Source: Burkholderia cepacia
GTDB lineage: Bacteria > Pseudomonadota > Gammaproteobacteria > Burkholderiales > Burkholderiaceae
Length of the DNA stretch: 64,000 bases
Reading direction: 5' to 3'
Assembly: GCF_029962485.1 (NCBI RefSeq)
Contig: NZ_CP073638.1
Span: 2,480,001 to 2,544,000, forward strand
This document shows, one piece after another, positions 12,228 to 48,900 of this stretch. The translations under genes and the position numbers were made by a program. Below the pieces are notes generated by a model. It worked only from the letters and a program-made list of their open reading frames with translations, was not told the origin of the DNA and did not search any database. Numbering within the stretch: position 1 is the stretch's first letter; each line of letters starts with the position of its first letter.

Positions 12228-12530
12228 ATGGCGACCTACAGGCAACTGTCCGTACAGCTCGAACGGCTTCAGCAAAAGATCGACAAGGAACGTGAAAAGG
12301 CGATTGCCGACGCGATTGCCGAAATCCGCGCGAAAATCGAGGAATACGACATTACGCCGGAGGAACTCGGTTTTCGTCCGATAGGGTCCGCCGTCGCTGC
12401 CGCCGCGAAGCCGAAGCGGTCGCTGCCGCCGAAGTACCTGAATCCGAAGACCGGCGAAACGTGGAGTGGCCGCGGGCGGGCGCCGACCTGGCTTGGCAAG
12501 AATCGCGCGCGTTTCCTGATCAAGGACTGA
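12228..12530 (+). CDS. H-NS histone-like nucleoid protein
   Basis: 100 aa. Residues 1-50 are the coiled-coil oligomerisation region (YRQLSVQLERLQQKIDKEREKAIADAIAEIRAKIEEYDITPEELGF). A linker and the canonical C-terminal DNA-binding motif follow (RSLPPKYLNPKTGETWSGRGRAPTWL). The GRGR loop inserts into the minor groove of AT-rich DNA, so the protein should silence AT-rich or foreign genes. A strong intrinsic terminator follows at 12567. Between the stop and that terminator lies one copy of the CTCCCG-N6-CTCACC element, starting on the base after the stop. Confidence 0.95.
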   Translation: MATYRQLSVQLERLQQKIDKEREKAIADAIAEIRAKIEEYDITPEELGFRPIGSAVAAAAKPKRSLPPKYLNPKTGETWSGRGRAPTWLGKNRARFLIKD

Positions 12531-12553
12531 CTCCCGAAAATCCTCACCTTTGG
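12531..12553 (+). repeat. CTCCCG-N6-CTCACC element, copy A, in the H-NS 3' UTR
   Basis: CTCCCG AAAATC CTCACC TTTGG starts on the first base after the H-NS stop codon and precedes its terminator, so it is transcribed in the mRNA. The same unit recurs at 12832-12876 and twelve times, in the matching sense orientation, after the second H-NS-like gene. Confidence 0.75.
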
Positions 12554-12831: not shown

Positions 12832-12876
12832 ATCCCGTAGATACTCACCATGGCTCCTGTAAATCCTCACCTTTGA
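12832..12876 (+). repeat. CTCCCG-N6-CTCACC element, copies B and C in tandem
   Basis: Copy B is TCCCG TAGATA CTCACC ATGG; copy C is CTCCTG TAAATC CTCACC TTTGA. They are adjacent with a 22-bp step. Copies A and C share the exact 15-mer AAATCCTCACCTTTG and the same orientation, with about 300 bp between them. Confidence 0.7.
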
Positions 12877-13102
12877 GGAAGCGGCCGCCGCGTCGTGCGG
12901 CGTTGTCTGCACCGTGCGGCGATGCGTTGCCGCGTGTGTTGCCGATCCATGGTGCGGGCGTTGACGCTTGTCGAATAGTCAGCCGTTCGGCATATAGGCA
13001 GCCGCATGCGCTTCGCCTATGCTTGGGGTTCGCGTCGATCGGCGCACGGCCTCTCGGGCCGGATGCCGATCGTGTCGTCTTTCGTCACCGCAGGGAGCCG
13101 AT

Positions 13103-15460
13103 GTGACCGTTCGCCATCTCGATGCGTTGTTCCAGCCCAAGTCCGTTGCAGTCGTCGGCGCGTCGTCGCGTGCGGGCAGTATCGGCGCGATGGTGTGGTC
13201 GCGCGTGCTCGACGGCGCATTCCAGGGGCCCGTGTGGCCCGTCAACCCGAAGTATCGCGAGTTGAACGAGCATGCGGTCGTGTCGGACGTCGACCGGCTG
13301 CCCGCGGCGCCGTCGGTTGCCGTGATCTGCACGCCGCCCGCAACCTGGGCCGGCATCGTGCGCAAGCTCGGTGAGCTCGGCACGCGCGTCGCGGTGATCG
13401 TCGGCGAGGCGCGCACGGATGCCGATCGCGCCGCGGTCGATCGCACGCTGAAGGCGGCGAAGCCGTTCGTGCTCCGTATCGTCGGGCCCGGTAGCCTCGG
13501 TGTGTTGTCTCCCGCGCGGCATGCGCATTTCGGTGCGCCGGCGTATACGGCGCGATCGGGCGGCGTCGCGTGGGTGTCGCAATCGAATGCGCTGACGAAC
13601 GCGGTGCTCGGCTGGGCCGATGCGCGCGGCCTCGGCTTTTCGCATGTCGTCGCGCTCGGCAGCGAGTCCGACGTCGATGCGGGCGACGTGCTCGATTATC
13701 TGGCGAGCGATCCCGGCACGCGCGCGATCCTGCTCGAACTCGATACCGTGCGCGCCGCGCGCAAGTTCATGTCGGCCGCGCGTGCGGCTGCGCGCAACAA
13801 GCCGGTCCTCGCGTTGCGCACCGGGCGTGCCGATCCCGGCGATGCACTCTATACGGCGGCGTTCCAGCGCGCGGGCATGGTGCGTGTCGATGCGCTCGAC
13901 GATCTGCTCGACGAGATCGAGACGCTGGGCGTCGGCCGCGTTACCGCGCGTGGCGCGGCGACGCTCGTCACCAGCGATGCCGGTGTCGCGAAGCTGGCGG
14001 TCGATGCGGTCGCGGAGGTACGCGTCGCGCTGGCCGACTGGTCGCCGGCGGCAACGTCGGCCGTGTCGGCCGCGCTGCCGCATCTCGCGGCGCCCGGCAA
14101 TCCGCTGACGCTGGGCGACGATGCACGCCCCGAGCACTTTGCCGCGGCGATCAAGGCGCTTGCGCCGTTCCCGCAAACGGGCGCGCTGTTCGTCGTCCAT
14201 TCGACATCCCACAGTGCGCCGGCCGAGTCGGTCGCGCGCACGCTGATCGACTCGCGGCAGTACGCGCATCGCGGCATCCTCGCGTGCTTCTTCGGTGCGG
14301 TCGACGCGGCCACGCGCGATGCGCTGCACGCGAACGGCATTCCGGTTCATACGACACCGCAGCGGCTCGCGCGCGCGTATGCACGTCTCGTCGACTACAA
14401 CCTCGGGCGGCAACTGCTGATGCAGACGCCCGAAGGCACGCCGCCGCAGCCGGCCGAATGCGTCGCGTCCGCGCAGGCGGAGGCACGCCGAATGGTCGAA
14501 ACCGGCCAGCATGAACTGGCCGGCGACGCCGCATTGCGCTGGCTTGCCCATTTCGGTTTGCATGGCGAGCAGGCTGCCGAGCCGGTCGGCAAGAAAGTCG
14601 TCGATGTCACGGTCGACATGTACGACGATTCGAACTTCGGTCCGGTGTTTCGCTATGCCGTACCCCCTGCGGACGGCGTCTCGGCGCCATTCGTCGTCTA
14701 CGGCCTGCCGCCGTTGAATACCGTGCTCGCGCGCGCGGTGATGGAGCGCTCGCCATATGCGCGCAGCACACCCGTCGAGCCGACGCTCGACGCGTTGACG
14801 GCGTTGTCGCAGGTCGTGTGCGACGTGCGCGAAGTCGTCGCGCTGTCGGTCACGCTGCGCGTGCTGTCCGATGGCGCGCGCGTGATCGCGCCACGCATCA
14901 CGCTGGCCACGGGTCGCAGCCGGCTCGCGATCATGCCGTATCCGCGGCACCTCGAACAGACGCTCGAGTGGCGCGGTGAGACGGTGACGATCCGCCCGAT
15001 CCGTCCGGAAGACGAGGCCGCGCACAACGAACTGCTCGGCGCGATGACGCCGGACGATTTGCGGATGCGTTTCTTCGGCGCGGTGCGCAGCTTCGATCAT
15101 TCGCAGGTGGCGCGCATGACGCAGATCGACTACGACCGTGAGATGGCTTTCATCGTGTCGTTCACCGATGTGTCGGGGCGTGACCACACGCTCGCGGTGG
15201 CGCGCGCGGTCGCCGATCCCGACAACGAGACAGCAGAGTTCGCGATCGCGGTACGCCCCGATCAGAAGGGCAAAGGGCTCGGCAGGCTGATGATGGCTCG
15301 CATCATCGACTACGCGCGCTCGCGCGGAACCGCCTGGATGATCGGCGAGGCGCTGCGCGAGAACTCGGCGATGATCTCGCTCGCGAAGTCGTGCGGTTTT
15401 GCGGTGTCGACGACGGAGGAGCCTGGCGTTGTGGGCTTCAGGATGAAGTTGCAGCCGTAG
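13103..15460 (+). CDS. Pat-type protein: acyl-CoA synthetase (NDP-forming)-like domains plus GNAT
   Basis: 785 aa, GTG start chosen for its SD (CAGGGAG, 5 nt away) and because CoA-binding homology begins there (FQPKSVAVVGASSRAGSIG). A CoA-binding Rossmann domain is followed by succinyl-CoA-ligase-like domains (LRIVGPGSLGVLSP; WVSQSNALTNAVLGWAD) and a shortened ATP-grasp-like part. Residues about 625-785 are a GNAT acetyltransferase (VTIRPIRPEDEAAHNEL; RPDQKGKGLGRLMMARIIDYAR). Proteins of this layout, such as Salmonella Pat, acetylate lysines of central-metabolism enzymes including acetyl-CoA synthetase. It is about 100 residues shorter than enteric Pat, mostly in the ATP-grasp region, which is often catalytically inactive. 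Confidence 0.85.
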   Translation: MTVRHLDALFQPKSVAVVGASSRAGSIGAMVWSRVLDGAFQGPVWPVNPKYRELNEHAVVSDVDRLPAAPSVAVICTPPATWAGIVRKLGELGTRVAVIVGEARTDADRAAVDRTLKAAKPFVLRIVGPGSLGVLSPARHAHFGAPAYTARSGGVAWVSQSNALTNAVLGWADARGLGFSHVVALGSESDVDAGDVLDYLASDPGTRAILLELDTVRAARKFMSAARAAARNKPVLALRTGRADPGDALYTAAFQRAGMVRVDALDDLLDEIETLGVGRVTARGAATLVTSDAGVAKLAVDAVAEVRVALADWSPAATSAVSAALPHLAAPGNPLTLGDDARPEHFAAAIKALAPFPQTGALFVVHSTSHSAPAESVARTLIDSRQYAHRGILACFFGAVDAATRDALHANGIPVHTTPQRLARAYARLVDYNLGRQLLMQTPEGTPPQPAECVASAQAEARRMVETGQHELAGDAALRWLAHFGLHGEQAAEPVGKKVVDVTVDMYDDSNFGPVFRYAVPPADGVSAPFVVYGLPPLNTVLARAVMERSPYARSTPVEPTLDALTALSQVVCDVREVVALSVTLRVLSDGARVIAPRITLATGRSRLAIMPYPRHLEQTLEWRGETVTIRPIRPEDEAAHNELLGAMTPDDLRMRFFGAVRSFDHSQVARMTQIDYDREMAFIVSFTDVSGRDHTLAVARAVADPDNETAEFAIAVRPDQKGKGLGRLMMARIIDYARSRGTAWMIGEALRENSAMISLAKSCGFAVSTTEEPGVVGFRMKLQP

Positions 15461-15742
15461 CGTTGGCCGGCTGCGCGAAGCCGGGAGGCATCGGTATGCA
15501 GGTGGATGTCTCCTGCCATTCGCCGTGTTGCGAACGTATTCGTTCAGGAATGCAAAGTATTGGAGCGGGTTTCTGGATGAGGCCCGCGAAACGTATCGAC
15601 TCAGTTTGTCACGCTGGTCCAGACCGTGTCCGAAGGGGCTTGCCGATCGCCGCATTACCTCTCCACGCGGCCGTTTTACGCGATGTGTTCAAGCGTTTTG
15701 CGCACCGCATTCTGGCCTCGCCAATTCGGATCGACCGTAAAG
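15461..15742. other. Spacer between the Pat-like gene and the 23-bp repeat array
   Basis: 282 bp. A 71-codon frame at 15525-15740 looks weakly protein-like (RNAKYWSGFLDEARETY), but has no SD and no family I recognise, so I do not call it. Otherwise nothing is seen. Confidence 0.4.
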
Positions 15743-16018
15743 GTGAGATTTTTCGGGAGCTGCAAGTGAGTGTTTACGGGAACGTGTGGTGAGCTGATAC
15801 GGGCACGTGTGGTGAGCCTTCCCGGGAGCGGCCGGTGAGCCCCTGCGGGAGCCGCTGGTGAGCCTTTCCAGGACACATCGGTGAGCGCTTGCGGGAGCAT
15901 CCGGTGAGGACATTCGGGAGGCGTTGGTGAGCGTCTCCGGGAGCTTGAGGTGAGCTTGTTCGGGAGGTGTCGGTGAGCGCTTTCGGGAGGCTGAGGTGAG
16001 ACTTTTCGGGAGCAGGCG
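15743..16018 (-). repeat. Twelve-unit tandem array, period exactly 23 bp, CTCCCG-N6-CTCACC
   Basis: On the plus strand units start at 15743 and every 23 bp to 15996. Each reads GTGAG-N6-CGGGAG-N6; on the minus strand this is N6-CTCCCG-N6-CTCAC(C). GTGAG is invariant in 12 of 12 units, CGGG in 11 and CGGGAG in 9. The two hexamers between cores vary freely, though the central one is purine-rich in the sense direction. Since 23 is not a multiple of 3, this is not a protein repeat. The array lies downstream of the H-NS-like gene at 16106 in the same sense orientation as the copies after the other H-NS gene. Confidence 0.85.
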
Positions 16019-16072
16019 GAGGCACTGCTCCCGGGGGCGCAGCGCCAGTCAATGCGGGCGTCACGCCGGGGT

Positions 16073-16095
16073 TCGGGCACGCATGAACCGTGCCC
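16073..16095 (-). terminator. Hairpin just after the H-NS-like gene
   Basis: CGGGCACG and CGTGCCCG make a perfect 8-bp stem with a 7-nt loop, about 10 nt past the stop. No T-run follows, so read-through into the repeat array is possible. Confidence 0.45.
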
Positions 16096-16105
16096 GAGGC
16101 CCCAT

Positions 16106-16648
16106 TTACGCGGCGAGTTTCGACGCTGCGTCGTTCACCTGATCGCGCGAAATCGCGAGTTCCTCGAGGTGCGGATCGGCATAGACGGCGCCGGTTTCGC
16201 GCTCGAGGCGGGCGATCGTCAGCGCACAGCGTGCGGTGTCTTTCGGCATCGCGATGAAGCGCTTGACCGACTCGCCGGACGTGAATGCTTCGAACAGCGC
16301 GCCGCGCACGTCGTCCGGAAGCGTCTTGGTCCATTGGTACGGCTTGCCGTTGAACGTGATCGACGGCGGCAGCGTGCGTTCCTTCTTGGTCGCCGTGATG
16401 AGCCCGTAGGTGCGGGCCGCGTCGCCGATCTGTTCAGGCGAGAAGAGTTCGTCGGGCGTGATGTCGAACTGCTCGATGTAGTTTTCGATCGCCTGCATTG
16501 CGGCGGCACGATCGTCGCGCTTCTGCTGCGCGCGCGCGACGATATCGCGCAGCTCGTCCGCTTCGTCGGGCGTGATCGTGAAGCTTGCCTGCTTCTGCTG
16601 AAGTTCGGAGAAACGCTGGAATTCTTGATCGTTCAGAAGTTTGGCCAT
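16106..16648 (-). CDS. H-NS-like protein with altered DNA-binding motif and C-terminal extension
   Basis: 180 aa. Residues about 15-75 are charged helices ending AMQAIENYIEQFDITPDELF, matching the AEIRAKIEEYDITPEELGF region of the canonical H-NS protein at 12228. The next segment ERTLPPSITFNGKPYQW aligns with the start of the H-NS DNA-binding domain (RSLPPKYLNPKTGETW). The minor-groove GRGR is replaced by TKTLPDD, and about 75 further residues follow. It may therefore modulate or antagonise H-NS, or bind DNA differently; that is inference. Met at 16648 is used; ATG at 16657 is an alternative. The 12-unit array lies downstream. Confidence 0.65.
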   Translation of the reverse strand: MAKLLNDQEFQRFSELQQKQASFTITPDEADELRDIVARAQQKRDDRAAAMQAIENYIEQFDITPDELFSPEQIGDAARTYGLITATKKERTLPPSITFNGKPYQWTKTLPDDVRGALFEAFTSGESVKRFIAMPKDTARCALTIARLERETGAVYADPHLEELAISRDQVNDAASKLAA

Positions 16649-16788
16649 GACATCCATCGGACACGACGGCCGCGACAACCGGCCGTCGTAGTTTTTGAGA
16701 GGGCCGCTATTTTAGCGTAGCGCCGCGGGCGCACGATATGGCACCGCATATGCGTACCGCGCGGGCATCGCACGAGCATCGCGGGCAA

Positions 16789-16818
16789 CCGGGGGCGGCG
16801 GCGCTGCGCCGCCCCCGG
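16789..16818 (-). terminator. Terminator hairpin of the IclR-type gene
   Basis: CCGGGGGCGGCG and CGCCGCCCCCGG form a perfect 12-bp GC stem with a 6-nt loop, 25 bp past the stop of the gene at 16844. Confidence 0.6.
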
Positions 16819-16843
16819 TGTGCTTCGTGGAGGAATCTGCCGG

Positions 16844-17665
16844 TCAGCAGATCTCGGTGCGGCCCATCGACAGATCGGCGGCCGTGTCACGCAGCCCTTC
16901 GACGACGTGGTCGACGGACGGGGCCGTGTGCGCGTCGATCCGGCGCATGAACGGGCAGGTCAGCACCGCGATCGCATGGCCGGACGGCCCGAGGATCGGC
17001 GCGGTCAGGTCGGTCACGCCATAGGCCTGGCGGCTGTCCTGGCGCAGGTAGCCATCCTGCCGGATGGACTGGCACGCATACGCGAGTTCCTGCTCGTTCA
17101 GCGGCGCCTCGCCCTTGACCTTGCGATGCTCGGTCAGCATGTGCGCGCGCTGCTCGGGGCCCTGGAACGACAGCATCACGCGTCCCGACGCCGTATCGGC
17201 GAGCCCGACGCGCGAGCCGAGCCGGACCGACACGCCCCATGAGCCGGGGCCGTCGACCTGAGCGATCACGAGCAGGTTGCCGCGATCGTAGACGGACAGG
17301 TGGCACGACTGTTCGGCCGCATCGGCGAAGCGCTGCATCGGCGGCAGCGCTTCGGCAATCAGCCGGTTCATCGGTGGATGCCGGTGCGCGAGCGCGAACA
17401 GCTTGAGGCTGAGCATGTAGCGATCGCCGCCGGTCGAGCGCATCACGTAGCGGCGTGCGACGAGGCGTTCGAGCATCCGGTAGATCTCGCTCGCGTTGCG
17501 GCCGAGTTCCTTCGTGATTTCAGTGCGGGTGAGTCCTTCTTTCTGCTCGGACAGGAGCTCGAGAATGTCGAGTCCCTTGTCGAGCGCGGGGGCGCGATAC
17601 CGGTCGATAGCGGCCATCGATTCCCGAGCGTCGCAGCCGGGAAGCGGGTCGTTGGTTGTCTGCAT
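16844..17665 (-). CDS. IclR-family transcriptional regulator
   Basis: 273 aa. An N-terminal winged helix (RYRAPALDKGLDILELLS; GLTRTEITKELGRNASEIYRMLERLVARRYV) is followed by the IclR effector domain (LPPMQRFADAAEQSCHLSVYDRGNLLVIAQVDGP; GVSVRLGSRVGLADTASGRVMLSF). Such regulators bind small aromatic or aliphatic acids. It is divergent from the FAH-family hydrolase, 664 bp away, which is the likely target though the distance is unusual. The start is uncertain: 17665 is used, but an ATG at 17617 just before the conserved region fits about as well. Confidence 0.85.
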   Translation of the reverse strand: MQTTNDPLPGCDARESMAAIDRYRAPALDKGLDILELLSEQKEGLTRTEITKELGRNASEIYRMLERLVARRYVMRSTGGDRYMLSLKLFALAHRHPPMNRLIAEALPPMQRFADAAEQSCHLSVYDRGNLLVIAQVDGPGSWGVSVRLGSRVGLADTASGRVMLSFQGPEQRAHMLTEHRKVKGEAPLNEQELAYACQSIRQDGYLRQDSRQAYGVTDLTAPILGPSGHAIAVLTCPFMRRIDAHTAPSVDHVVEGLRDTAADLSMGRTEIC

Positions 17666-44995: not shown

Positions 44996-45151
44996 ATGAG
45001 CTTCATCTTCGCCCTGCTGCAAAAGATCGACGACCTGTTCGTGTCGCCGCACCTGCCCCTCGACGCCGAATACTCGTACGCTGCGCGTCGTGCCGAAGCC
45101 GAGCGCGTGCGCCGTGCGCACCTCGTACCGATCGTCCTGTACCGTCGCTGA
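44996..45151 (+). CDS. Small 51-aa protein
   Basis: 51 codons: an amphipathic start (MSFIFALLQKIDDLFVSPHL), then a basic helix (YAARRAEAERVRRAHLVP) and VLYRR at the end. SD CAGGAG lies 7 nt before the ATG. It could be a small membrane-associated stress protein of the DUF3563 sort, but I cannot confirm that. Its last codons and stop lie in the first unit of an eight-copy octamer repeat. Confidence 0.7.
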   Translation: MSFIFALLQKIDDLFVSPHLPLDAEYSYAARRAEAERVRRAHLVPIVLYRR

Positions 45152-45211
45152 TTCGCTGATTCGCTGATTCGCTGATTCGCTGATTCGCTGATTCGCTGAT
45201 TCGCTGATTCG
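45145..45211. repeat. Octamer tandem repeat (TCGCTGAT)x8
   Basis: Eight perfect copies run from 45145 to 45208, then TCG. The first unit contains the stop codon of the 51-aa gene. Because 8 is not a multiple of 3, the repeat places TGA in all three plus-strand frames. Confidence 0.9.
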
Positions 45212-45928: not shown

Positions 45929-48900
45929 TCAGCGTGCGCGGCCTTTCCATCTCCGCAACAGCAACGCGTTGGTCACGACGCTGACGCTGGAAAACGCCAT
46001 CGCCGCGCCCGCGATCACCGGGTTCAGCAGGCCGAGCGCCGCGAGCGGCACGCCGACCAGGTTGTAGACGAACGCCCAGAACAAGTTCTGCTGGATCTTC
46101 CGGTACGTGCGTTTCGAGATGTCGATCGCGTCGGCGACGAGCGCCGGGTCGCCGCGCATCAGCGTGATGCCGGCCGTGTGCATCGCGACGTCCGTGCCGG
46201 TTGCCATCGCGATGCCGACATCGGCCGCGGCGAGCGCGGGCGCATCGTTGATCCCGTCGCCGACCATCGCGACGACCCCGCCGTGCGTGCGCTTCAGCTC
46301 GGCGACGACGCGCGCCTTGTCGTCGGGCAACACTTGCGCATGCACTTCGCCGATGCCGAGCGCCGCCGCGACGGCCGTCGCGCTGCCGCGGTTGTCGCCG
46401 GTCACGAGCGCGCTGACGACGCCGCGTGCCGACAGCGCCGCGATCGCGTCGCGGGCGCCCGGCTTCACGGTGTCGCCGAATGCGATCAGCGCGAGCAATG
46501 CGCGCGGCGCATCGGCACGCATCAGCCACGAGATCGTGTTGCCGGCGCGTTCGAGCTCGGCCGCGCGGACGTCGAGCTCCGGCGGCACCGCGATGCCGAG
46601 CTCGTCGCGCCAGCGCGTGCTGCCGAGCGCAAGCAACTGCTCGCCGACGCGCGCTTCCACGCCGCGTCCGGCCACCGCGCGTGCATCGACTGCCACGGCC
46701 GGCGGTGCCGTTACGTCGCGTGCGGCAACGTCCGCATCGTGCGCGGCGACCACGGCACGCGCGAGCGGGTGGTCGCTCTGACGCTGCACGGCCGCCGCAA
46801 GCGCGAGCGCTTCGCCGCGCGGCACGCCCACGGCCTCGAACGCCGTCACGGACGGCTTGCCTTCGGTCAGCGTGCCGGTCTTGTCGAATGCGATCACGGT
46901 CGTGCGCTGCGCGAGTTCGAGCGCTTGCGCGTCCTTGATCAGCACGCCGTGCCGCGCCGCGACGCCCGTGCCGGCCATGATCGCGGCGGGCGTCGCGAGG
47001 CCGAGTGCGCACGGGCAGGCGATCACGAGCACCGCGACCGCATTGAGGATCGCGGTTTCCATCCCGGCGCCGGCGATCAGCCAGCCGACCAGCGTCAGCA
47101 CCGCGATGCCGAGGATCGCCGGCACGAACACTTCGCTGACCCGATCGACGAGCCGCTGGATCGGCGCCTTCTCGGCCTGCGCGGATTCGACGAGGCGGAT
47201 GATGCGTGCGAGCGTCGTTTCCGCGCCGATCGCGGTGGTTGCGACGACGAGCGCGCCTTCGCCGTTGATCGAGCCAGCCGTGACGGCGTCGCCGTTGTCC
47301 TTCGGCACGGGCAGGCTCTCACCGGTGATCAACGATTCGTCGATGTGCGAGCGGCCCGACACGATCCGGCCGTCGACGGGGACGCGTTCGCCCGGGCGGA
47401 TGCTGACCTGGGTGCCGACGCGTACCTGCGCCAGCGGTACGTCGCGTTCGACGCCGTGCTCGATGACGCGCGCCCGGTCGGGGCGCAACGCGTTCAGCGC
47501 ACGGATCGCCTCGGTGGTCTGGCGCTTCGCGCGCGATTCGAGCCATTTGCCGAAGCGCACGAGCGTGACGATGACGGCCGACGCCTCGAAATACAGGTGG
47601 CCGGGATGCGCGGGATCGCGCAGCAGCATCCACAGGCTCAAGCCGTACGCGGCCGACGTGCCGAGTGCGACGAGCAGGTCCATGTTGCCGGTGCGCGCTT
47701 TCACCGCGTGCCAGGCTGCGCGGTAGAAGCGCGCGCCGAAGCCGAACTGCACGATCGACGCGAGCACGAGCTGGAGCCAGCCGGGCAGCATCAGGTCGAT
47801 GCCGAACGGCGCGACGAGCATCGGCGCGACGAGCGGTGCGCTCAGCACGGCGGACCAGATCACGAGGTTGCGTTCGCGCACCGCTTCGCGGCGCTTGCGG
47901 GCGTCGGGGTCCTGCGCGACGCTGGCCGGTTGCGCGTCGGCGCCGGTCGTTGCGCCGGCTGACGGCGCGGCAGCGAGCGATGCACGGTAGCCGGCCGTGG
48001 TGACCGCCGCGATCAGCCTGGCGGCGTCGAGCGCGCCGGCGCCATGCACCGACGCGCGCTCGGTGGCGAGATTGACGGAAGCGTGCGCGACGCCCGGCAC
48101 GGCGGCCAGCGCTTTTTCGACGCGGCCGGCGCAGGACGCGCAGGTCATGCCGCCGATGTCGAGTTCGAGGTCGGCCGAAGCGGCTGCAGGCGGCGCGGCG
48201 ACGGCGACCGGTGTCGCACCGTAACCGGCCTGTTTCACCGCTTCGGCGAGCCGTGCGGCGGACACGTCGGCCGACGCGTCGACGGTGGCGCGTTCGGTCG
48301 CGAGGTTGACCGACGCGCGGGTGACGCCCGGCACGTTTGCCAGCGCCTTCTCGACGCGCGACACGCACGATGCGCAGGTCATCCCGTCGATGTCGAGTTC
48401 AATGCCGGCAGGTGTGGCAGGTGTGGCAGGTGTGGCAGGTGTGGCAGGTGTGGCAGGTGTGGCAGGTGTGGCAGGTACGGCGGCCGGGATCGCGAGATCG
48501 GGCGCCTTTGGCGTCGCACCATAGCCGGCCTGCTTCACGGCATCCGCCAGTTGCGATGCGGAAACGCCCGCCGCCGCGTCGACGGTGGCGCGTTCGGTTG
48601 CCAGGTTGACCGACGCGCGCGTGACACCCGACACCTTCGCCAGTGCCTTTTCGACGCGCGACACACATGACGCGCAGGTCATTCCATCAATATCGAGCTC
48701 GATCGTGGTTGCGGCGGGCGGAAGCGTGGCGGCTGCGGACGGCGATTCGTCGCGCTGCGCATCTGCCGCAGGCGCGGTCGCGACGGCTTCCACGGCCGCG
48801 TCGCGCACGGTGGCGCGGTAGCCGGCCTCACGGATGGCGTCGACGAGCCGGCCGGGCTCGACCGTGTCCTGCGCGGTGACCGTCGCCGCCTGCGCGTCGA

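Follow-up and report, generated by a model that had tools for sequence, protein, structure and literature searches.

Introduction

In Vibrio cholerae, iterons of RctB, the chromosome-specific initiator of plasmid type, are also found off the origin, on the same chromosome and tens of kilobases away (passages on RctB sites in Baek and Chattoraj 2014, PMC3937223). According to the passages of PMC3937223 and PMC6090056 that deal with them, RctB sites outside oriII lower oriII copy number, additional RctB relieves the effect except for one site, and their action has been likened to that of datA, an off-origin cluster in E. coli that binds the initiator and restrains initiation. Here we describe a comparable locus in a 64,000-nucleotide stretch of Burkholderia cepacia chromosome 2 (assembly GCF_029962485.1, contig NZ_CP073638.1, positions 2,480,001 to 2,544,000 of the forward strand), referred to below as the window. 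Its central element, array 1, is a series of twelve regularly spaced sites that, as judged by sequence, is almost certainly a remote iteron array for RepA2, the Rep_3-family initiator of chromosome 2.

Non-origin iterons are also used by plasmids. Those of P1 incA lower copy number by titration or pairing, and both incA and the incC iterons of plasmid F adjoin the rep gene, whereas array 1 and its counterparts in other genomes lie about 100-270 kb from it. We know of no counterpart among Rep_3 initiators to the datA-promoted hydrolysis of DnaA-ATP. The incC control iterons of F likewise lie outside the origin and lower copy number by titration or pairing (passages on the incC bridge in PMC11711613). 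Array 1 differs from datA in that datA consists of DnaA boxes promoting DnaA-ATP hydrolysis, as outlined in the datA passages of PMC3937223 and PMC6090056, whereas array 1 consists of iterons. The locus differs from the RctB sites in its density, as its 15 sites lie within 3.5 kb and 12 of these form a regular array, and in belonging to a Rep_3 initiator.

The array has already been noted in 2016, in identity and position. One line in the legend to S1 Table of Du et al. 2016 (PMC4948915) reports a second cluster of chromosome 2 (c2) iterons in Burkholderia cenocepacia J2315, with the same motif and at the same 140 kb from the c2 origin. That notice is a single clause, and the passages of the paper that mention the cluster are silent on its sequence, conservation, layout and function. 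The J2315 cluster and array 1 are very probably the orthologous locus. A text search for the motif led to Du et al. 2016 alone. As far as the open-access literature was searched, the cluster is known and unstudied there, and the conservation of the array, its strong-ended layout and an iteron pair on the third replicon were not found. To this known remote cluster we add how it is conserved, how it is laid out and what part it probably plays in controlling replication.

Results

Array 1 (15742..16017, minus strand) is made up of twelve c2-type iterons, CTCCCG-N6-CTCACC, at an exact 23-bp step. The last core ends at 16012, and on the plus strand the unit reads GGTGAG-N6-CGGGAG-N5. A preliminary description of the window had reported twelve units at this step, and the unit listing agrees with it apart from a start one base earlier. 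The cores are also as described, GTGAG being present in 12/12 units and CGGGAG in 9/12, with units 2, 3 and 6 deviating. The same description was right that the two cores are kept. It took the bases between them as variable, but these are not free: in iteron orientation, A stands second among the six inner bases in 0.94 of the units of arrays and in 0.93 of origin iterons. Tandem Repeats Finder returned period 23 for array 1, plus 46 and 69, and the self-identity of the array is 0.65 at lag 23 compared with 0.21-0.36 at the remaining lags from 15 to 34. Ten exact two-core sites occur in the window, against a mean of 0.01 and a maximum of 1 in 100 first-order simulations. When up to three mismatches were allowed, the two-core pattern was not enriched across the whole window (102 found, 106 expected), so that what stands out is the tight cluster.

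The consensus of the best units has nine perfect matches in the B. cepacia genome. All are on the chromosome 2 contig (C2; contigs, genomes and loci are cited by our C, G and L numbers) and fall in two areas, one being the arrays of the window, array 1 and the smaller array 2, and the other C2:2345598-2356136. The largest cluster of the motif occupies a 1.67-kb intergenic stretch with a KfrA_N-domain gene on one side and, on the other, a Rep3_N/Rep3_C gene (repA) followed by ParB- and ParA-like genes. Eighteen sites within two mismatches lie in this stretch, called ori2 here, or 20 with a slightly looser pattern. In domain content and order, the arrangement of KfrA_N gene, iterons, Rep3 gene, ParB and ParA is that of a plasmid-type replication origin. 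A c2 origin has been described for Burkholderia, together with the c2 iteron consensus ctCCCGAAAAacCTCACCTtt (Du et al. 2016, passages on c2 in PMC4948915). The outer units of array 1 and two of the three array 2 units agree closely with this consensus, and the inner units mostly share the cores alone.

A 21-position matrix was built on the origins of 19 other Burkholderia genomes, which contributed 340 sites, and run on both strands of the window. Fifteen positions scored at least 10 bits and 17 scored at least 6 bits. The fifteen are the 12 sites of array 1 (10.8 to 36.0 bits) and the three of array 2, since each of these scores at least 10.8 bits. Neither the inner A-tract nor the trailing T-run of the iteron played any part in choosing the training sites. 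Origin stretches were read in 19/60 other Burkholderia genomes and in 20/46 genomes of other genera with a RepA2 match (42/46 at least 78% identical); origin iterons are irregularly spaced, yet the spacing is similar between species. The remote locus as a whole holds 15 sites in 3.5 kb, compared with 18 at the origin.

Further c2 iterons were seen around ori2. Nine satellites of at least 11 bits, single or paired, lie within about 20 kb of it (L123:4484-15359; L124:184-225; L124:16409), and the eight to its left are all on the plus strand. A lone exact two-core site, CTCCCGTATCGGCTCACC, is located at G000:C2:2470098-2470115, about 25 kb from array 1, and its 18 letters are identical to those of the origin iteron at C2:2356007.

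The motif was then counted by replicon. Exact two-core sites number 24 in the B. cepacia genome, 22 on C2, two on C3 and none on C1. A strict 14-base iteron was searched in nine genomes outside Burkholderia (five related genera, 2-4 contigs each), and all of its matches (98/98) were on the repA2 contig. With a 15-base iteron, 135/141 matches in 12 Burkholderia genomes were on the repA2 contig, 5 on the contig of the third-replicon rep gene and 1 elsewhere; the remote locus carried at least one of these matches in all 12 genomes. The reversed-pattern control gave 0 matches in both sets, which were hand-picked for few contigs and from which none was dropped later. Close iteron pairs were found in 19/32 genomes and never in the reversed control. 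Clearly, the strict motif is confined almost wholly to replicons with the cognate initiator.

RepA2 is present in 61/61 Burkholderia genomes and is 91-100% identical among them. Two-unit matches occur in 54/61 genomes, four of which have only a single match, leaving 50/61 with at least five; positions are known among the matches listed. Ten array-poor genomes (G006, G014, G030, G032, G033, G044, G047, G050, G051 and G057) have an iteron pair 22-34 bp apart in place of array 1, plus three or four facing iterons. An eleventh genome, G037, has six iterons, mostly 46 bp apart, plus facing ones. Iterons were present wherever the place was read, namely in 31/31 named loci, in these 11 genomes and in 10/10 further genomes. 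The sets of genomes and loci overlap and are not independent, since some appear to be the same strains (e.g. L072 and G044).

Unit spacing is nearly constant. In the 31 named loci, 335/339 steps are 22-24 bp and 303/339 are exactly 23, as counted by a chain search that favours 23 and permits just 20-26 or 43-49. Ten orthologous 12-unit arrays were compared by column: that of the window and those of nine loci among the 29 from Burkholderia (L043-L071), selected for gap-free 12-unit alignment. Core columns vary in 26/144 cases and other columns in 82/132 (p = 4e-14).

The position of the locus relative to repA2 is also kept. In the B. cepacia genome, array 1 and its neighbouring H-NS-like gene are about 140 kb from repA. 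This gene and repA2 share one contig in 46/61 genomes. In 42/46 it lies on the downstream side of repA2 at 107-273 kb, and in the other four (G006, G022, G031 and G051) on the other arm at 102-264 kb, with its orientation turned accordingly; 8/46 of the distances assume a circular contig. Inversions around the origin would yield such a pattern on both arms.

The two ends of array 1 differ from its interior. The outer iteron at the far end from the H-NS-like gene, CTCCCGAAAAATCTCACC (15742..15759, minus strand), scores 36.0 bits, and the one at the end nearest that gene, CTCCCGAAAAGTCTCACC (15995..16012, minus strand), scores 31.3 bits. Both are origin-like, as the 18 origin iterons of the same genome average 28.0 bits, compared with 10.8-25.6 bits for the inner units. 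In 9/9 related aligned arrays, both outer units outscore every inner unit. Mean scores tend to rise and fall by turns along the inner units, which fits the 46-bp period from Tandem Repeats Finder. The long arrays probably grew between the members of an ancestral pair. This is the simplest history because array-poor relatives hold only the pair; loss of inner units is the alternative.

Array 2 faces array 1 from the other side of a synthetase/GNAT gene, in the opposite orientation. The preliminary description had mentioned a second array, and it is indeed present as three spread units starting at 12531, 12832 and 12854. The first (12531..12548, plus strand, 34.3 bits) is directly 3' of the stop codon of an H-NS family gene, a position kept in relatives. 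The second (12832..12849, plus strand, 18.0 bits) lies 301 bp beyond it, and the third (12854..12871, plus strand, 30.7 bits) 22 bp further on. The 301-bp step recurs as 299-302 bp in 25/31 named Burkholderia loci.

Three genes border the arrays. The H-NS family gene (12228..12530, plus strand) encodes 100 amino acids matching Pfam Histone_HNS (E 1.2e-11). The acyl-CoA-synthetase-like and GNAT gene (13019..15460 in its longest reading, plus strand; the real start may be later) matches Pfam CoA_binding_2, Succ_CoA_lig and Acetyltransf_1. The H-NS-like gene next to array 1 (16106..16648, minus strand, 180 amino acids) is its conserved neighbour, found in 61/61 Burkholderia genomes, one of them partial. 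Its product has no match in Pfam or NCBIfam at E 0.001 and locally resembles the product of the true H-NS gene (27/63 aligned positions, E 2e-7). A comparison of 30 loci showed the synthetase/GNAT gene in 30/30 and the H-NS gene in 28; in the remaining two, the stretch stops short of the position of the H-NS gene. Elsewhere in the window, two perfect short tandem repeats, 8.4 copies of TCGCTGAT at 45145-45211 and 7.8 copies of GGCAGGTGT at 48407-48476, are possible slippage loci.

The order of H-NS-like gene and then synthetase/GNAT gene extends beyond the genus, to 49/49 Paraburkholderia-group loci, in which the two are 21 to 4232 bp apart. None of these loci (0/49) has an iteron of at least 16 bits within 1 kb downstream of the H-NS-like gene, and the six one-mismatch matches found in them are all inside the synthetase/GNAT coding region. 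A strong iteron lies about 4.5-4.9 kb downstream of the H-NS-like gene in 9/49 loci (L079, L083, L087, L092, L093, L096, L101, L106 and L113, the last with two). Because these nine outside loci have a strong iteron nearby, satellites in the area may predate the genus. A facing iteron pair was also seen at G106:C2:2492125-2492306, about 1.6-2.0 Mb from ori2 on a 3.7-Mb contig, toward the far side of the chromosome.

The third replicon, C3, carries a pair of c2-type iterons. They are 33 bp apart (C3:30981-31034; L125:8981-9034), about 1.7 kb upstream of the third-replicon rep gene and further out than the CCCATAA-type repeats that belong to this replicon. Of the 50 other Burkholderia genomes in which a second Rep was matched, 20 were read over the third-replicon stretch. 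A comparable pair, 32-34 bp apart, is present in 15/20, at 1.6-1.8 kb from the rep gene in 14 and at about 3.1 kb in one (L245); with our own, the pair-bearing loci are L125, L230, L232-L238 and L241-L247. Among the remaining five, one has a single site (L229) and four have none, one of these stretches ending at a contig end. In an alignment of 16 sequences, from which L245 was left out and in which L229 was included, the cores are invariant or nearly so within more variable surroundings.

Discussion

The best explanation overall is probably that the locus is a remote cluster of RepA2 sites, about 140 kb from ori2, that restrains re-initiation. Motif identity with the ori2 iterons, near-complete replicon specificity, conservation and layout can be read from the DNA itself. 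Negative control of initiation by titration or pairing is suggested by analogy and is somewhat less secure. The preliminary description had offered a DNA-binding array as one of its options, and this option fits, the sites reading as iterons of a plasmid-type initiator.

Each 18-bp site would be bound by a RepA2 monomer through a pair of winged helices that contact one hexamer core each and lie about one helical turn apart. The two strong outer sites would fill first, or nucleate binding, and the weaker, evenly spaced interior would fill cooperatively as RepA2 rises. Given its position, the locus would be copied soon after ori2 fires, providing up to 15 more sites. These new sites may draw free RepA2 from the origin (titration), or the locus may pair with the origin iterons through RepA2 bridges (handcuffing). 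In either case re-initiation would be held back, helping the once-per-cycle timing of chromosome 2.

Several observations weigh against this interpretation. The matrix is partly circular in its cores, because it was trained on sites selected with the core pattern that the window had first revealed, and chance matches may be included among the 340. With one mismatch allowed, two-core sites occur on all three contigs of the genome, 13 of them on C1; isolated sites of this kind outside clusters are mostly chance, because the total is 70 against 19 for the reversed pattern. A loose 13-base form of the iteron leaks in G147, where 3/21 exact matches among those listed are off the repA2 contig. Inner units score below most origin iterons and have no T-run after CTCACC. 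In the nine related arrays, 7/90 inner units score below 10 bits and two are strongly negative, that is, broken, and some inner units are certainly weak or dead on these scores. The long array is nonessential, because 10/61 genomes hold two iterons in its place. The kept distance from the origin could be ordinary conservation of gene order. Finally, the functional step is made by analogy with V. cholerae, where deletion of the chrII-10 site gave no growth phenotype (passages on this site in PMC3937223 and PMC6090056).

The locus might instead be a relic, left by an origin that is no longer active or by iterons that multiplied neutrally. We consider this unlikely. Unit number does vary from 2 to 23 between species, and inner units are weak and a few broken. 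Decay or neutral growth would sit poorly with cores conserved between species, with 22-24 bp steps in 335/339 cases and with strong outer units in 9/9 arrays. A former origin is also at odds with the absence of origin features, as no DnaA boxes (up to one mismatch), CTGTGCA 7-mers or AT-rich stretch were found at either array. A second origin at the locus was set aside as improbable for want of these features, and GC skew showed no lasting change of sign in the window.

Equally doubtful is that the locus acts positively, as a licensing-type element of the crtS or DARS kind by which RepA2 would be remodelled or activated. The crtS site does show that remote initiator sites can act positively (crtS passages of PMC3937223 and PMC6090056). 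It is a single non-iteron site with a different motif, on the primary chromosome, whereas the motif here is the iteron and lies on C2, with no exact two-core site on C1. The plain non-origin iterons of Vibrio acted negatively in the passages of the same two papers.

The possibility that a KfrA-like protein binds the motif, and that the arrays serve the organisation or segregation of chromosome 2 and not the control of its initiation, appears slightly less probable still. A KfrA_N-domain gene borders the origin iterons, and KfrA-type proteins are DNA binders. Four reduced relatives were informative on this point. They have RepA2, 78-83% identical, on replicons of 61-72 kb with origin iterons (5-10 within one mismatch in the origin stretch) and ParAB, and no KfrA was detected at E 1e-3 within the 20 kb read. 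Because they keep RepA2 and iterons in this way, RepA2 rather than KfrA is the likely binder. Iterons adjoining a Rep_3 gene are, moreover, classic sites of Rep_3 initiators (compare the c2 passages of Du et al. 2016, PMC4948915). Against solved structures, RepA2 has one weak relevant match, pi protein 2nra (E 0.0074). No satellite iterons were found on the RepA2 replicon of the four reduced relatives, all iterons being at the origin, and the larger secondary chromosomes searched have some iterons outside it.

Transcription of the array, as a 3' untranslated region or as a separate RNA that titrates ribosomes, Hfq or CsrA, is very improbable. The preliminary description had raised such readings (anti-Shine-Dalgarno, CsrA titration, 3' untranslated region). 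The sense strand of the H-NS-like gene does read CUCCCG/CUCACC, and a search of this strand between the gene and the array detected nothing like a terminator. Against an RNA stands the presence of the motif at ori2 and in the satellites, whose annotated neighbours are not H-NS genes. No Rfam family was found on array 1 (the one match elsewhere, at 23.6 bits, is below the gathering score of 47.4), and no promoter-like site was found within 15400-16900. The base just before CTCCCG, at unit position 23, is C in only 44/120 cases, showing that the CCUCC core of an anti-Shine-Dalgarno sequence is not kept. The likeness to CcsR/cuckoo anti-Shine-Dalgarno RNAs drawn in that description is that of a superficial C/U-rich repeat. 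In contrast to those RNAs, with their motif as given there, the array motif would act as a DNA site at an origin, lacks a kept CCUCC and is not restricted to 3' untranslated regions.

The functional link to H-NS proposed in the preliminary description is not supported either. No H-NS-domain gene is among the annotated neighbours of the ori2 cluster, and the H-NS-like gene persists without strong iterons within 1 kb in 49/49 loci outside the genus. An H-NS regulatory element was rejected, as the motif does not travel with the H-NS-like gene. The reading of the plus strand as a chain of overlapping 8-codon open reading frames (each with GGGAG as ribosome site, GTG as start and a TGA that overlaps the GTG of its successor; 23 = 3 x 8 - 1) has a negligible chance of being right and was ruled out, because although 287/370 units in 31 loci fit it, as the GGTGAG core and 23-bp step would produce, 83/370 fail it, 32/339 steps of 22 or 24 break the frame, and the origin, satellite and array 2 iterons are spaced unlike such a chain.

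A wider role for RepA2 is a tentative proposal. RepA2 might run a genome-wide timing network in which the remote two-armed locus times re-firing of ori2 and the pair on C3 links the third replicon with chromosome 2. An equally good candidate for binding that pair is the Rep protein of the third replicon itself. If RepA2 binds it, chromosome 2 could influence the third replicon. Segregation in the order c1, c2, c3 has been reported (segregation passages of PMC4948915), and a timing network of this kind, if true, would be its molecular basis.

Vibrio has been the main source of knowledge on once-per-cycle firing of a plasmid-type origin on a chromosome of 3 Mb, and the passages of Du et al. 2016 (PMC4948915) name no element for it. 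In Burkholderia, a compact genus-wide locus with 15 sites against 18 at the origin, and with no counterpart on the 61-72 kb replicons of the four reduced relatives, is a direct candidate for an element that controls it.
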